64,000 bases of DNA from Streptomyces endocoffeicus (GTDB lineage: Bacteria; Actinomycetota; Actinomycetes; Streptomycetales; Streptomycetaceae), in contig NZ_JAERRG010000010.1 of NCBI RefSeq assembly GCF_016741935.1, positions 248,001 to 312,000 on the forward strand, in the 5' to 3' direction. The notes under the pieces were generated by a model. The model saw only the letters and a list, made by a program, of their open reading frames with translations. It had not been told where the DNA came from and searched no databases. The translations under genes and the position numbers were made by a program. Positions within the stretch are counted from its first letter, which is position 1; each line of letters begins with the position of its first letter. Positions 24,587 to 29,517 of this stretch are shown piece by piece.

Positions 24587-24727
24587 CGCGAAAGCGCGTG
24601 CGGGGCGGCGCGGGAAGCGTTCGCGGGGCGGCGGCGGAAGCGTCCGTAAGATGGCGTGAACCCTTCGCGGCGACCGCCGGACGGGTGCCGATTGGGCTTT
24701 CGGGCCGTCAACGGCGAGACTGCTTCC

Positions 24728-26224
24728 GTGACGTCCCGTACTCCGCGCGACTCCCGGCTCCGACTTGTCCGCAACCGGCCGATGGCCACGGCCCGCCGGC
24801 CCGCGGTGAACCGCGGCTCAAGACCGGCGCCCCGTCCGCCGGAGGGCACTCCACCACCGTCGGAGCTGGCCCGGCGGGCCCGGGCGGGGCTCACCGGGGC
24901 CGTGGCGATCGCCCACTGGGCCGCGGCCGAGCACGGCGCGCCCGGCGCGCTGTCCGACGAGGCCGCCGCCCGCGCCACCGAGGCACTCGGGGTGAGCGAG
25001 CGGGAGGTGCGGACCGACTGGGACCGCGCCCGCCTCATCGGCCTCATCGAGCACCACGCGGGCACCACCCGCCCCGGCTGGCGGCTCCAGGCGTGGGACC
25101 GGGACGACAGCGCCGTGCTGCGGGGCTGGGTCGCGCTCCTGGACGCGTGGTCCCTGGCCTGCCCCGCCCCCGAGACGGCCGAGCCGACGGCGGTCGCGGA
25201 GGTCGTCGAGGCCGTACCGCAGCTGCTCTCCCTGCTGCAGCTCTCGGCCGGTCCCGTGCCGATCTCCACCCTGCTGGACATGCTCCGGAAGCGGGTCGCC
25301 GAGCTGCGCACCGAGCGGTGCGAGGTCCCCCAGGAGGTCACGGAGCTGCGGGAGCCCGCGGAGGGCGCCGGGCGCGCCACGAGCGCCGACGATCTCAAGG
25401 ACGCGGAGGACGCCGAGGACGCCAAGGACGCCGCCACGCTGGAGGGGCTGCTCGACTGGGCCCTGGACGCCCTCTCGTCCGTCGGGGCGCTCACGGTGCG
25501 GGAGGAGCCCCAGGACGGGCCGGAGGGGCCGGAGGGCGCCGGGAGCGCGGCCGACGACGCCAAGGGCGACCGCCGGGAGGCCGAGCTGACCGCGCTCGGC
25601 AACTGGGCGGTGTGGGTCAAGCTGGAGCAGATCTGCGTCGCCGCCCAGAGCCCGGCCGGGAACATCGAGCAGCACGCCGCCGACATGCTGCGCGGCTGTG
25701 CGGGTCTGACCCCGGGCCCCGCCCGCGCCGAGTACCGCGCCTGGCTGGCCGCCCGCCCCGTCGGCAGCGCCGTCGTCGAGCTCATCGACGCGGCGCGCGG
25801 CGACGACGCGCTGCTGCGCGGGCTCGCCTTCGAGGCGCTGCGCGTCGTCGGGGCGCCCGCCGAGCCCAATGTGCGGGCCGTCGTCGACGAATCGTGCCTG
25901 CGGCCGTACGCGCTTCTGTGGCTCGCCGAGCACGAGGGAGCCGACCCGGACGAGGCGCTGGACGCGCTCACCCGCGAGGAGGCCACCTGGCTGTGGGTGG
26001 ACACCGCCGCGGCCATCTCCGACCACGGGGAGAGCCCGCTGCTCGTCCGCCACCTGGAGTCCGCCGTCCAGGGCACCGTGCCCGCGCTGCTGGCGGAGGT
26101 ACGGGCCGTGGGGCACCCCCGCACCGTGCAGGTCCTGGTGGCGCTGGCCGCGGCCCACCCCGATCCGGCCCTGGCCAAGGCGGTGCGCCGGGCGGCCTTC
26201 CAGGTGCACACGGGCGGGGCCTGA
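24728..26224 (+). CDS. Uncharacterised actinobacterial protein
   Basis: A 498-residue protein with no domain I can name. It has a basic N-terminus, a helical segment of about 100 residues (ELARRARAGLTGAVAIAHWA onwards) that could hold a winged-helix-like fold, a central acidic low-complexity linker with repeated DAEDAEDAKDAA, and a helical C-terminal half resembling HEAT-like repeats. GTG 24728 is chosen because the preceding frame has poor codon usage; ATG 24656 is possible. No signal peptide or transmembrane helix. Conservation among Streptomyces is remembered, function is not known. Confidence 0.7.
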   Translation: MTSRTPRDSRLRLVRNRPMATARRPAVNRGSRPAPRPPEGTPPPSELARRARAGLTGAVAIAHWAAAEHGAPGALSDEAAARATEALGVSEREVRTDWDRARLIGLIEHHAGTTRPGWRLQAWDRDDSAVLRGWVALLDAWSLACPAPETAEPTAVAEVVEAVPQLLSLLQLSAGPVPISTLLDMLRKRVAELRTERCEVPQEVTELREPAEGAGRATSADDLKDAEDAEDAKDAATLEGLLDWALDALSSVGALTVREEPQDGPEGPEGAGSAADDAKGDRREAELTALGNWAVWVKLEQICVAAQSPAGNIEQHAADMLRGCAGLTPGPARAEYRAWLAARPVGSAVVELIDAARGDDALLRGLAFEALRVVGAPAEPNVRAVVDESCLRPYALLWLAEHEGADPDEALDALTREEATWLWVDTAAAISDHGESPLLVRHLESAVQGTVPALLAEVRAVGHPRTVQVLVALAAAHPDPALAKAVRRAAFQVHTGGA

Positions 26225-26275
26225 GCGAGCGGCGGCCGGGGGCAAGCCGGGGGAAAATCGACTTGCCCGCCCCGC

Positions 26276-26281
26276 TAAACT
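26276..26281 (+). promoter_or_regulatory. -10 element of the ABC-F leader
   Basis: TAAACT matches TANNNT and ends 6 bases before the ATG of the 7-codon leader ORF, so the transcript would begin at or within a base of that ATG. No convincing -35 at normal spacing is seen. Confidence 0.55.
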
Positions 26282-26287
26282 AGCTCC

Positions 26288-26311
26288 ATGGCAATTCTCC
26301 TCGTGCATTAG
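26288..26311 (+). CDS. Putative 7-residue leader peptide MAILLVH
   Basis: A short ORF, ATG to TAG, encodes Met-Ala-Ile-Leu-Leu-Val-His. It begins at the predicted transcription start of the ABC-F transcript, 60 bases before the ABC-F GTG, and would be translated as a leaderless ORF. The stop overlaps the left arm (26311-26317) of a 7-bp stem closing with 26342-26348. The set-up resembles a translational attenuator or upstream ORF of a ribosome-acting gene. There is no homology evidence beyond the layout. Confidence 0.5.
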   Translation: MAILLVH

Positions 26312-26371
26312 ACGGCGTCGGCCGCCCTCGTCCGTCCCGTCCGCCGTCCACCCTGCCCAGGAGTAATTCCC

Positions 26372-27970
26372 GTGATCACCGCCTCCGGCGTCGAGCTGCG
26401 TGCCGGCGCCCGCGTCCTCATCGAGTCCGCTTCCTTCCGCATCGCCAGAGGCGACCGCATCGGTCTCGTCGGCCGCAACGGCGCGGGCAAGACCACGCTC
26501 ACCAAGTGCCTGGCCGGTGAGGGCATCCCGGCCGGCGGCACCATCACCCGCTCCGGCCAGGTCGGCTACCTCCCGCAGGACCCGCGCACCGGCGACCTCG
26601 ACGTCCTCGCCCGTGACCGCATCCTCTCGGCCCGCGACCTCGACTCCGTGCTCCGTAAGATGCGCGAGAACGAGGACCGGATGGCCAACGGCAAGGGCGC
26701 CACCCGCGAGCGCGCGATGAAGAAGTACGAGCGCCTGGAGACCGAGTTCCTCACCAAGGGCGGATACGCCGCCGAGGCGGAGGCCGCGACCATCGCCGCC
26801 AGCCTCGGCCTGCCGGACCGGGTGCTCGGCCAGCCGCTCCATACGCTCTCCGGCGGTCAGCGGCGCCGGGTCGAGCTGGCCCGGATCCTCTTCTCGGACT
26901 CCGACATCCTGCTGCTGGACGAGCCCACCAACCACCTCGACGCCGACTCGATCACCTGGCTTCGGGACTACCTCAAGACCTACAGCGGCGGCTTCATCGT
27001 CATCTCCCACGATGTCGACCTCGTCGAGACGGTGGTCAACAAGGTCTTCTACCTCGACGCCAACCGCTCGATGATCGACATCTACAACATGGGCTGGAAG
27101 CTCTACCAGGCCCAGCGCGAGGCCGACGAGAAGCGCCGCAAGCGCGAGCGCGCCAACGCCGAGAAGAAGGCCGCGGCGCTCAACGCGCAGGCCGACAAGA
27201 TGCGCGCCAAGGCGACCAAGACCGTGGCCGCGCAGAACATGGCCCGCCGCGCCGAGAAGCTGCTGTCCGGTCTGGAGGGCGTCCGGCAGTCCGACAAGGT
27301 CGCCAAGCTGCGCTTCCCCGACCCGGCCCCGTGCGGCAAGACCCCGCTGACCGCGGAGGGGCTGTCGAAGTCGTACGGCTCCCTGGAGATCTTCACCGAT
27401 GTCAACCTGGCCGTCGACAAGGGGTCCCGGGTCGTCATCCTCGGGCTGAACGGCGCCGGTAAGACGACCTTGCTGCGGCTGCTGGCCGGGGTCGAGACGC
27501 CGGACACCGGCCAGGTGACCCCCGGACACGGGCTGAAGCTGGGTTACTACGCGCAGGAGCACGAGACGCTCGACCCGGAGCGCACCGTCCTGGAGAACAT
27601 GCGCTCCGCCGCCCCGGATCTCGACCTCGTCGACATCCGTAAGACGCTCGGGTCCTTCCTGTTCTCCGGCGACGACGTGGACAAGCCGGCCCGGGTGCTC
27701 TCCGGTGGTGAGAAGACCCGGCTGGCGCTGGCCACCCTGGTGGTCTCCTCGGCCAATGTGCTGCTGCTGGACGAGCCCACCAACAACCTCGACCTGGCCA
27801 GCCGTGGGGAGATCCTCGGCGCGCTGCGCACCTTCGCGGGTGCGGTGGTCCTGGTGACCCACGACGAGGGCGCCGTCGAGGCGCTGCAGCCGGAGCGGAT
27901 CATTCTGCTTCCGGACGGTGTCGAGGATCTGTGGGGCCAGGACTACGCGGACCTCGTCGCGCTCGCCTGA
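26372..27970 (+). CDS. ABC-F family ATPase (ribosome-associated)
   Basis: A 532-residue protein with two ABC domains and no membrane part. Domain 1 has Walker A LVGRNGAGKTTLTK, signature LSGGQRRRVELARIL and Walker B LLLDEPTNHLD. A charged linker of about 80 residues (KRRKRERANAEKKAAALNA) corresponds to the P-site tRNA-interaction motif region. Domain 2 has LGLNGAGKTTLLRLL, LSGGEKTRLALATL and LLLDEPTNNLD. ABC-F proteins act on stalled or antibiotic-bound ribosomes. GTG 26372 has AGGAG eight bases upstream. Housekeeping and antibiotic-resistance roles cannot be separated by sequence. Confidence 0.92.
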   Translation: MITASGVELRAGARVLIESASFRIARGDRIGLVGRNGAGKTTLTKCLAGEGIPAGGTITRSGQVGYLPQDPRTGDLDVLARDRILSARDLDSVLRKMRENEDRMANGKGATRERAMKKYERLETEFLTKGGYAAEAEAATIAASLGLPDRVLGQPLHTLSGGQRRRVELARILFSDSDILLLDEPTNHLDADSITWLRDYLKTYSGGFIVISHDVDLVETVVNKVFYLDANRSMIDIYNMGWKLYQAQREADEKRRKRERANAEKKAAALNAQADKMRAKATKTVAAQNMARRAEKLLSGLEGVRQSDKVAKLRFPDPAPCGKTPLTAEGLSKSYGSLEIFTDVNLAVDKGSRVVILGLNGAGKTTLLRLLAGVETPDTGQVTPGHGLKLGYYAQEHETLDPERTVLENMRSAAPDLDLVDIRKTLGSFLFSGDDVDKPARVLSGGEKTRLALATLVVSSANVLLLDEPTNNLDLASRGEILGALRTFAGAVVLVTHDEGAVEALQPERIILLPDGVEDLWGQDYADLVALA

Positions 27971-28058
27971 CGAGGCCAGACGGCGGGCGGGGCGGGCCCG
28001 GCGGAGGGCCGGGGGTGGCGTTCCGGACGCCGCCCCAAGAGTCCGGTTCCTCCGGTCC

Positions 28059-28096
28059 GATCCCCTTCTCGTAGATCATTCGGCCTAGGCGTGATC
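28059..28096 (+). promoter_or_regulatory. GATC cluster upstream of gbn
   Basis: Three GATC sites (28059, 28074, 28093) lie 15 and 19 bases apart, with another GATCAT at 28352, all in the 423-base gap 27971-28393 ahead of the gene for a GATC-binding protein. Spacing suggests possible autoregulation. The gap shows no gene I can support. Confidence 0.4.
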
Positions 28097-28393
28097 CATC
28101 ATCTGAGTGAGAACGGCTGGTATCGCGGCGCGTCGCGGGCCACCGGCGCACACCCCGTGCCGTGCGCCGGTCCGCATCTCTGCGACGTAGCTCACGTATG
28201 CCCTGACCTGCCTCTTCGTCGATGAACACGAAAGAGTGTCAGGTTGAACAGCGCCGGAATCCTTGCTTCCGAAGGTCGTCGTGCCGCGATTTCCCGCAAT
28301 CCTTCATCCACAGACCTTGCCGAATGGGTGGCCAGGAAGCCCTGTAGGGGTGATCATGAGAGTCCAGAGCGCACTTCCCATGAGGAGGCACGG

Positions 28394-28615
28394 GTGGCCG
28401 AGACTCTGAAGAAGGGCAGCCGGGTGACCGGCGCCGCGCGCGAGAAGCTCGCGGCAGACCTGAAGAAGAAGTACGACTCCGGGGCGAGCATCCGGGCGCT
28501 GGCCGAGGAGACCGGCCGTTCCTACGGATTCGTTCACCGGATGCTCAGCGAATCCGGAGTTTCCCTACGGGGACGTGGCGGTGCGACGCGAGGCAAGAAG
28601 ACCGCCTCGGCCTGA
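28394..28615 (+). CDS. gbn: Nucleoid-associated protein Gbn (GATC-binding)
   Basis: A 73-residue basic protein with one helix-turn-helix: LAADLKKKYDSGASIRALAE, then ETGRSYGFVHRMLSESGVSL, and a Gly/Arg/Lys tail. Sequence and position match S. coelicolor SCO1839, described as the small nucleoid-associated protein Gbn that binds GATC-containing sites and influences sporulation and antibiotic production (from memory). GTG 28394 has GAGGAGG upstream; the reading frame stays open for 150 bases before it but codon use there is poor. A hairpin terminator follows. Confidence 0.88.
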   Translation: MAETLKKGSRVTGAAREKLAADLKKKYDSGASIRALAEETGRSYGFVHRMLSESGVSLRGRGGATRGKKTASA

Positions 28616-28659
28616 TCGCCCGCAAGCTCCATCACCATCAGCAGGCAGGGACAGGGGTG

Positions 28660-28691
28660 CCACCCGGCTGATCGTCGGTTCGGCCGGGTGG
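28660..28691 (+). terminator. gbn terminator hairpin
   Basis: CCACCCGGC (28660-28668) and GCCGGGTGG (28683-28691) form a perfect 9-bp stem 45 bases after the gbn stop. Confidence 0.7.
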
Positions 28692-28737
28692 TTACTGTGC
28701 AGTCACTTGTACTGACCGCACCCGACCGGAGGCCCCT

Positions 28738-29517
28738 GTGACCCTGCTCGACAAGGACGGCGTTCAGCTCACCGTCGATGACACGGTCGCCACGGTGACC
28801 CTGAACAACCCGGGGAAGCGCAACGCCCAGTCGCCCGCCTTGTGGCGGGCGCTGGCCGAGGCCGGAAAGCTGGTGCCGGGCACCGTGCGCATCGTGGTGC
28901 TGCGCGCCGAGGGCAAGTCCTTCTCGGCGGGTCTGGACCGACAGGCGTTCACGCCCGAGGGGTTCGACGGCGAGCCGTCGTTCCTCGACATGGCGCGCGG
29001 TTCCGACAGCGAGCTGGATGCCACCATCGCCGGGTACCAGGACGCGTTCACCTGGTGGCGGCGGAACGACATCGTGTCGATCGCCGCCGTCCAGGGCCAT
29101 GCCATCGGGGCCGGTTTCCAGCTTGCGCTCGCCTGTGACCTGCGGGTCTGCGCGGACGACGCACAGTTCGCCATGCGCGAGACCAGCCTCGGGCTGGTGC
29201 CGGACCTCACCGGCACCCAGCCGCTGGTCGGCCTGGTGGGATACGCCCGTGCGCTGGAGATCTGCGCGACCGGGCGCTTCGTCCACGCCGAGGAGGCCGA
29301 GCGGACCGGGCTCGCCAATCTCGTGGTGCCCGCCGCCGAACTCGACGGCGCGGTCCAGGACCTGGCGGCGGCCCTGCTCGCCGCGCCCCGCGACGCCGTG
29401 GTCGAGACCAAGGCGCTGCTGCGGGGCGCCGTGGACCGCACGTACGAGGAGCAGCGTGCCGCCGAGCGCGCCGCCCAGGCCCGCCGGCTGCGCGACCTGG
29501 CGGGGGTCACGGACTGA
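28738..29517 (+). CDS. Enoyl-CoA hydratase/isomerase family protein
   Basis: A 259-residue crotonase-fold protein. CoA/oxyanion-hole motifs are KSFSAGLDRQAF near residue 60 and GHAIGAGFQLALACDLRV near residue 120. One of the two catalytic glutamates may be in MRETSLGLVPDLTGTQ; the family position before LGLVPD carries S/L, so hydratase activity is not certain. GTG 28738 has CGGAGG upstream. Likely role in beta-oxidation or acyl-CoA modification; no CoA-pathway neighbours help to narrow it. Confidence 0.86.
   Translation: MTLLDKDGVQLTVDDTVATVTLNNPGKRNAQSPALWRALAEAGKLVPGTVRIVVLRAEGKSFSAGLDRQAFTPEGFDGEPSFLDMARGSDSELDATIAGYQDAFTWWRRNDIVSIAAVQGHAIGAGFQLALACDLRVCADDAQFAMRETSLGLVPDLTGTQPLVGLVGYARALEICATGRFVHAEEAERTGLANLVVPAAELDGAVQDLAAALLAAPRDAVVETKALLRGAVDRTYEEQRAAERAAQARRLRDLAGVTD

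Follow-up and report, generated by a model that had tools for sequence, protein, structure and literature searches.

In the erm and cat translation attenuators, a ribosome stalled on a short open reading frame (ORF) frees the hidden ribosome-binding site (RBS) of a resistance gene. The leader described here resembles them in its short ORF and its RBS, predicted to be hidden; it differs in that the erm and cat leader ORFs have their own Shine-Dalgarno sequences and, in erm, a defined arrest peptide.

Several ABC-F genes are controlled by attenuators with a very short upstream ORF (uORF), on which stalling likewise alters the leader: lmrC, are5sc and tiaA in Streptomyces, and vmlR, cplR, vgaA and msrD elsewhere (PMC8546547, PMC12421871, PMC10201436). 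According to the same sources, cplR also hides its Shine-Dalgarno, as the present leader does, whereas the are5sc and tiaA uORFs have their own ribosome-binding sites in leaders of 194–232 nt and the ORF presented here is predicted to be leaderless. The known cases, as described, centre on a terminator; here none is evident, the short ORF (sORF) itself is the RBS-hiding strand, and the ABC-F protein differs from those of the known uORF attenuators.

Leaderless short ORFs at the 5′ end of an mRNA control the next gene in the mycobacterial polycysteine attenuators (Canestrari et al., 2020, as reported in PMC9031893, PMC9094748 and PMC13236596), a system described as translation attenuation (PMC13236596). 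As described, these leaders stand before cysteine genes and detect cysteine by means of consecutive Cys codons, whereas the Streptomyces leader precedes a ribosome-protection gene, and no run of Cys codons occurs in the sORF peptides listed across our families. The 5′-terminal AUG of E. coli ptrB also affects translation of the next gene (Beck and Janssen, 2017, as reported in PMC9031893), in that description without a conserved short ORF or a family-wide RBS-hiding helix. The wblC/whiB7 leader resembles the mechanism proposed here in its uORF-based sensing of ribosome-targeting drugs in actinobacteria, but is described as controlling a transcription factor by transcription attenuation (PMC7157823, PMC13236596), whereas the present leader precedes an ABC-F gene. 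Published precedents exist for uORF attenuators of ABC-F genes, for leaderless attenuators that respond to cysteine and for leaderless leaders of amino-acid genes. A search of the open-licence literature, with subscription papers and supplements outside its scope, returned no report on the leader analysed here, and the sORF is absent from a table of eight Streptomyces lividans leader peptides, which was compiled from amino-acid genes only.

The window, by which we mean the whole 64,000-nucleotide stretch of Streptomyces endocoffeicus DNA that was analysed, comes from a Streptomyces-like genome of 13.1 Mb. It contains a leader in which, very probably throughout the Streptomycetaceae, the RNA of a conserved leaderless sORF hides the start site of an ABC-F gene. 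All features lie on the forward strand. A predicted leaderless promoter, based on sequence and on the profile of related leaders, has its -10 element TAAACT at 26276–26281. The ATG of the seven-codon sORF MAILLVH (26288–26311, stop TAG) lies at 26288, 6 nt past this hexamer, and the ABC-F gene begins with GTG at 26372, preceded by an AGGAG Shine-Dalgarno (26359–26363). The first-pass annotation had read the -10, the ORF with its TAG and the AGGAG followed by the ABC-F start in the same way, and each of these readings was borne out. Upstream, positions 24656–26224 encode a 522-aa protein that has no NCBIfam or Pfam match at E ≤ 0.001. Downstream lie a small helix-turn-helix protein (PF19575; 28244–28615), a neighbour retained in mycobacteria-like genomes, and, as further genomic context, a crotonase/enoyl-CoA hydratase family protein (28738–29517).

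The ABC-F protein (26372–27970, 532 aa) matches the ribosomal protection-like ABC-F family NF000355.4 with 388.1 bits, against a cut-off of 380, and a protein search places its closest named relatives in Streptomyces. Among proteins of solved structure it most closely matches PoxtA, which protects against oxazolidinones and phenicols (PMC8987054). The ABC-F is found at E ≤ 1e-120 in 189 of 197 Actinomycetes genomes. In one Mycobacterium-like locus (L160), an ABC-F gene with 64% identity is preceded by a crotonase gene and followed by a helix-turn-helix gene; inspection by eye places a WCGPC thioredoxin-like gene ahead of the crotonase. We take this order to be that of Rv1471-echA12-Rv1473-Rv1473A, with echA12 in the place of Rv1472. 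Rv1473 has been named ocrA for oxazolidinone and chloramphenicol resistance, and is reported to act against oxazolidinones and phenicols (PMC9159947). Because of the identity to L160, the shared gene order and the naming of Rv1473 as ocrA, the window protein is probably the Streptomyces ortholog of mycobacterial OcrA, with a putative resistance role in Streptomyces. The helix-turn-helix gene and the crotonase gene are each found near the ABC-F gene in 94 of 95 Streptomycetaceae loci. The survey of neighbours over all loci undercounts them, as L112–L151 were taken without their downstream flank.

The first-pass annotation had called for a comparison with orthologous ABC-F leaders. We collected 261 loci, which reduced to 240 distinct leaders after removal of 21 duplicates. 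The 95 distinct leaders from Streptomycetaceae (family f1) comprise the best protein hits, 15 other genomes of the same genus and the window, and are thus a non-random sample whose raw counts are inflated by relatedness. A mini-ORF, defined as TANNNT, a gap of 5–8 nt, ATG or GTG and a stop within 15 codons, is present in 95/95 of these leaders, compared with 1.3 of 95 after dinucleotide shuffling and 0/95 of the reverse complements. The sORF, its start, its stop and its placement relative to the -10 are all kept: the start is ATG in every one of the 95 leaders, and an in-frame stop always follows after 7 to 10 codons (7 codons in 88 leaders, 8 in 4, 9 in 1 and 10 in 2). The first-pass annotation would have been refuted by a lack of such conservation, and on this point it stood.

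Across ten families, the mini-ORF occurs in 159 of the 240 distinct leaders. Besides the Streptomycetaceae, the larger contributors are f17 (29/34), f19 (12/18) and f18 (12/30), where shuffled leaders give 0.5, 0.3 and 0.1, respectively; smaller samples are f9 (4/5), f28 (2/2), f37 (2/2), f20 (1/1), f8 (1/1) and f33 (1/4). It was found in 0/30 leaders of the Mycobacterium-like family f4, in 0/13 orthologs of the sister family f42 and in none of thirteen other small family samples. The 159 sORFs span 3 to 10 codons in 158 cases and 13 codons in one, starting with ATG (145) or GTG (14).

The encoded peptides differ between families: MAILLAH, MAILLVH and relatives in Streptomycetaceae, MMPVAD in f19, MRTPD or MRAPD in f17 and MTSAAS in f18. 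Residue 3 is free to vary even within Streptomyces. An arrest peptide was consequently rejected as the main explanation. Since unrelated peptides occupy the same place at a similar size in several families, the comparison suggests that selection keeps ribosome occupancy rather than peptide sequence.

Other leader architectures also occur. In L267–L279 of f42, inspected by eye, the ABC-F gene itself appears leaderless, in place of the sORF, and the same seems to hold for several loci of f4, f26, f38 and f13 (TANNNT, 7–9 nt, then GTG or ATG); the two states appear to interchange in evolution. In f4, inspection by eye of L153, L156–L158, L162, L167 and L170 revealed a TAAAAT -10 and, where the 5′ end is presumed to lie, [AGT]TGTGC; several of them have a possible GTGCCC...GGGCAC hairpin, which would make a different leader type for the same gene. 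Two f42 loci (L280 and L281) hold ABC-F paralogs with 61% identity and their own leaderless sORF, MSTPRMS, which folds onto the Shine-Dalgarno region. Two Kitasatospora leaders (L047 and L052) have a hairpin of minimal form: their sORF MAECHTHV ends in a TAG that overlaps the ABC-F gene's AGGAG Shine-Dalgarno, and its first bases, ATGGCT, are complementary to AGCCAT where the gene begins. In L110, the TGA stop of a leaderless GTG ORF overlaps the TTG start of the ABC-F gene, a coupled arrangement.

The position of the sORF relative to the -10 is tightly constrained. Of the 95 Streptomycetaceae leaders, 46 have a gap of 6 nt to the start codon and 49 a gap of 7 nt; in the ten families together the gap is 6–7 nt in 158 of 159 sORF leaders, although the search rule permitted 5–8 nt. 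Over the Streptomycetaceae the distance from sORF to gene ranges from 41 to 188 nt while the -10 gap stays fixed. In S. lividans, the mean distance from the -10 to the transcription start is reported as 6.3 nt and 17% of transcripts as leaderless (PMC8079986). We predict from this spacing that transcription starts at the sORF ATG. Four bases of the hexamer, T1, A2, A4 and T6, are invariant (95/95), the main variants being TAGACT (62), TAGAAT (24) and TAAACT (7).

Further upstream, the window carries the element GAAAAT-CGAC-TTGC (26253–26266), which is conserved in relatives: among the 95 leaders, GAAA starts 23 positions ahead of the -10 in 51 and 24 ahead in 24, and TTGN starts 14 ahead in 78. 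A scan of 25500–28600 with the sigma-70 consensus gave no promoter-like site and no TTGACA-like hexamer at the usual spacing. WblC-activated promoters are described as GAAAWY, 3 bp, TKGMNN, 16–19 bp, TANNNT (PMC7157823). A GAAAA-N3-TTGC box is present in most leaders, but only 8 bp, not 16–19, separate TTGCAC from the -10, and a WblC promoter was rejected. In 26253–26281 and in the relatives, the GAAAA of this WblC-like box occupies the expected -35 place and is strongly conserved.

Folding of the window leader gave a structure of -31.7 kcal/mol (z = -2.94; 3 of 200 shuffles were as good). Its principal helix joins the sORF to the ABC-F start site. The 5′ arm (AUGG.AAUUCUCCU, 26288–26301, supported by folding and by the alignment of relatives) begins with the first base of the sORF, and the 3′ arm (26359–26373) comprises the Shine-Dalgarno, the spacer and the first two bases of the GTG. 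AUGG (26288–26291) pairs with CCGU (26370–26373), AAUU with AAUU, and CUCCU with the AGGAG Shine-Dalgarno. The first-pass annotation had described a 7-bp stem at the end of the ORF. This stem exists, with its left arm GACGGCG at 26311–26317 starting on the last base of the sORF stop and its right arm CGCCGTC at 26342–26348, predicted by folding. It forms only the tip of a longer hairpin, however, the body of which is made by pairing between the ORF and the RBS of the ABC-F gene, and it is poorly kept: 76.6% of its alignment cells are paired, compared with 84 to 99% in the other helices, and one of its pairs forms in only 34 of 73 sequences. We therefore rejected it as the core structure.

Pairing between the Shine-Dalgarno and the sORF has a mean probability of 0.86 in the 95 Streptomycetaceae leaders against 0.17 in shuffles, with values above 0.5 in 83 of them. 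The corresponding figures are 0.52 against 0.09 in f17 (above 0.5 in 16/29), 0.22 against 0.09 in f19 (1/12) and 0.30 against 0.03 in f18 (2/12). RNAalifold, run on the alignment alone with no structure supplied, returned only seven pairs, four of which are CUCC with GGAG. The partners differ in other families. In f17, the sORF segment CACTCCCG pairs with CGGGAGTG at the Shine-Dalgarno, other members pairing TGCTCC with GGAGCA; in f19, CCGTGGC pairs with GCCACGG just upstream of the Shine-Dalgarno. No such pairing is seen in several members of f17 that have GTG starts and weak Shine-Dalgarnos. Many f17 folds leave the start codon out of the helix; even so, an ATG or GTG stands at an unchanged gap in 29 of 34 leaders, so that pairing leaves its conservation there unexplained.

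A ribosome placed on the sORF start changes access to the ABC-F start site in these folds. In the window, the cost of opening the RBS falls from 11.5 to 4.7 kcal/mol and the probability of an unpaired Shine-Dalgarno rises from 0.01 to 0.29, so that the site becomes only partly open. The Streptomycetaceae means move from 9.1 to 6.6 kcal/mol and from 0.06 to 0.20, and in f17 the opening cost falls only from 8.3 to 7.6 kcal/mol. The proposal in the first-pass annotation of a ribosome-sensing attenuator is partly supported, in that the leader folds in such a way that a ribosome on the ORF would alter access to the ABC-F start; the helix that matters is the ORF with the Shine-Dalgarno and start codon rather than the 7-bp stem.

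Selection on this pairing was assessed with several measures. Alignment A1 holds 73 sequences, drawn from 74 distinct leaders of at most 97 nt; the window stands in for its copy L081, and a 47-nt Kitasatospora leader was left out. Its covariation score is 0.119, against 0.095 for shuffles (0/500 as high), and slid registers all score 0.060 or less. Two of five measures on A1 were no better than shuffles: there were 3 pairs in which both partners had changed, where shuffles gave 3.5, and 18 further pair types, where they gave 18.3. At E ≤ 0.01, the covariance model built from A1 (R1) has hits in 145 of 150 Streptomyces genomes, some of which had supplied A1, with one match in 143 and two in two genomes. 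The best match adjoins the ABC-F start in all 16 genomes with known ABC-F coordinates. R1 has no match in 15 order-mates outside Streptomyces, and Rfam gave none up to E = 5 in 25500–28700.

In Ala codon 2 the third base is silent; it pairs with the base at -4 of the ABC-F gene in 81 of 95 Streptomycetaceae leaders (C-G 49, A-T 23, T-A 7, G-T 2) and fails to do so in 14. Placed on the gene tree, for which 76 of the 95 rows were entered, this count reduces to four supported independent pairs, of which three are concordant, none opposite and one without difference (sign test, p 0.25), and it is therefore suggestive rather than proof.

Natural sORFs were also compared with synonymous recodings. 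The sORF contributes 2.45 kcal/mol to the RBS opening cost in Streptomycetaceae, against 0.54 for synonymous recodings and 0.64 for shuffles, and the natural sORF lies above the recoded mean in 83 of 92 leaders; the recodings followed a simple GC-ending weight, and 2 of the 94 distinct leaders were skipped. The contribution is 0.83 against 0.01 for recodings in f17 (natural higher in 22/29), 1.88 against 0.89 in f19 (9/12) and 0.82 against 0.11 in f18 (8/12). Raw duplex energy is a weak measure of silent-site selection, and the RBS opening cost a clearer one: relative to synonymous recodings with measured codon use, raw duplex energy reached ≤ 0.05 in 5/86 Streptomycetaceae leaders, 12/29 in f17, 0/5 in f19 and 0/7 in f18, where the natural pairing is weaker than that of its recodings. 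When sORFs and RBSs were exchanged between leaders, permuted partners matched the leaders' own pairing in 0/5000 permutations for Streptomycetaceae, 1/5000 for f17 and 0/5000 for all 116 distinct leaders. The same permutation was not significant within f19 (2409/5000), where the cut at -16 drops part of the pairing, or within f18 (4654/5000). Comparing family means, own pairing beats cross-family pairing in 8 of 10 families. Codon choice is equally distinctive, with rare codons held fixed in the sORFs: Ile is ATT in 55 of 56 sORF codons, compared with 26 of 2045 in ABC-F genes, and His is CAT in 80 of 86, compared with 15 of 603. The computed pairing and the constraint on silent positions are thus carried by co-variation and the synonymous control in Streptomycetaceae and, matched separately, by f17 as a second family; the two further families are weak or mixed.

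These results lead us to propose a leaderless translation attenuator, in which a ribosome on the sORF, present longest when it is stalled by a drug, frees the ABC-F start site; we give this reading a probability of roughly 60%. Transcription would start at the ATG of the seven-codon sORF, so that 70S ribosomes could load at the very 5′ end as soon as it emerges. With no ribosome bound, the ABC-F start site would be masked, as the sORF RNA, its first base included (AUGG...CUCCU), would pair with the Shine-Dalgarno, the spacer and the start codon. A ribosome on the sORF would cover the 5′ arm and leave the start site free, and the hairpin would close when ribosomes leave. Normal passage over seven codons would be brief, whereas a ribosome stalled on the first codons, for example by a peptidyl-transferase drug, would keep the site open. 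The raised level of ribosome-protecting ABC-F protein would then clear the stalls and the site would close again. Transcription start, sORF translation, induction by stalling or drugs, and feedback by the ABC-F are all steps that we infer. That ribosome stalling, probably by drugs, is the signal seems to us about an even bet.

Plain translational coupling or ribosome delivery, in which a constantly translated sORF opens the RBS or feeds ribosomes to it with no sensing of stalls, is a rather unlikely explanation. The lack of peptide conservation between families and the freedom of residue 3 in Streptomyces look as if only ribosome passage counts; 5′-terminal AUGs in E. coli are reported to alter translation of the next gene (PMC9031893), and coupled leaderless small ORFs are described in mycobacteria (PMC4633059). 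Coupled pairs overlap, however, whereas the sORF stop would lie 20 to about 165 nt before the gene in nearly all Streptomyces leaders, and the strong hiding of the RBS suggests a switch rather than a constant feed.

Transcription attenuation, whether antibiotic- or Rho-dependent, would have stalling on the sORF change a terminator, a mechanism reported for lmrC, are5sc and other actinobacterial cases (PMC8546547, PMC12421871). Our scan of 25500–28600, which depends on a T run that may be missing from GC-rich terminators, revealed no terminator-like site, and translation attenuation is therefore the better fit; the conserved helix also includes the Shine-Dalgarno itself. We regard this mechanism as improbable. 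It is more doubtful still that the ORF is incidental to a conserved hairpin whose role is to reduce ABC-F translation or to make the 5′ end more stable: nucleotide constraint does exceed peptide constraint and AUGG itself is paired, but all 95 Streptomycetaceae leaders keep both the ATG and the in-frame stop, and f17 retains its start codon at the gap far above the shuffled expectation although that codon is often outside the helix.

For the attenuator opened by a ribosome on the sORF, the residues at which it might stall are of interest. Lincosamides, streptogramin A and pleuromutilins are reported to stall ribosomes at the start codon in the leaders of are5sc and tiaA (PMC12421871), and linezolid and chloramphenicol arrest best with Ala, less with Ser or Thr, at position -1 (PMC8987054). 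Ala is residue 2 in 92 and the penultimate residue in 53 of the 95 Streptomycetaceae peptides, and it is penultimate in 12/12 peptides of both f19 and f18; in f17, Thr or Ala precedes Pro in 16 of the 18 peptides that end in PD. This placement may partly follow from base pairing, and A, S and T are common residues whose counts here come without a null model; since pairing also constrains these codons, the placement fits drug arrest but is no test of it. Tentatively, and less likely than not, the mRNA 5′ end might itself detect stalled 70S ribosomes directly and be matched to those drugs that its own gene counters, in which case arrest at Ala, or at Thr/Ala, would keep the protection gene open until its product clears the arrest.

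If the proposed attenuator is correct, it would be a very small actinobacterial switch, whose first 24 RNA bases serve at once as anti-Shine-Dalgarno, sensor ORF and start site. Such a switch would connect leaderless translation, which is common in Actinomycetes, with intrinsic ribosome-drug protection in antibiotic producers, and would provide a testable model of how leaderless initiation reports the state of the ribosome.
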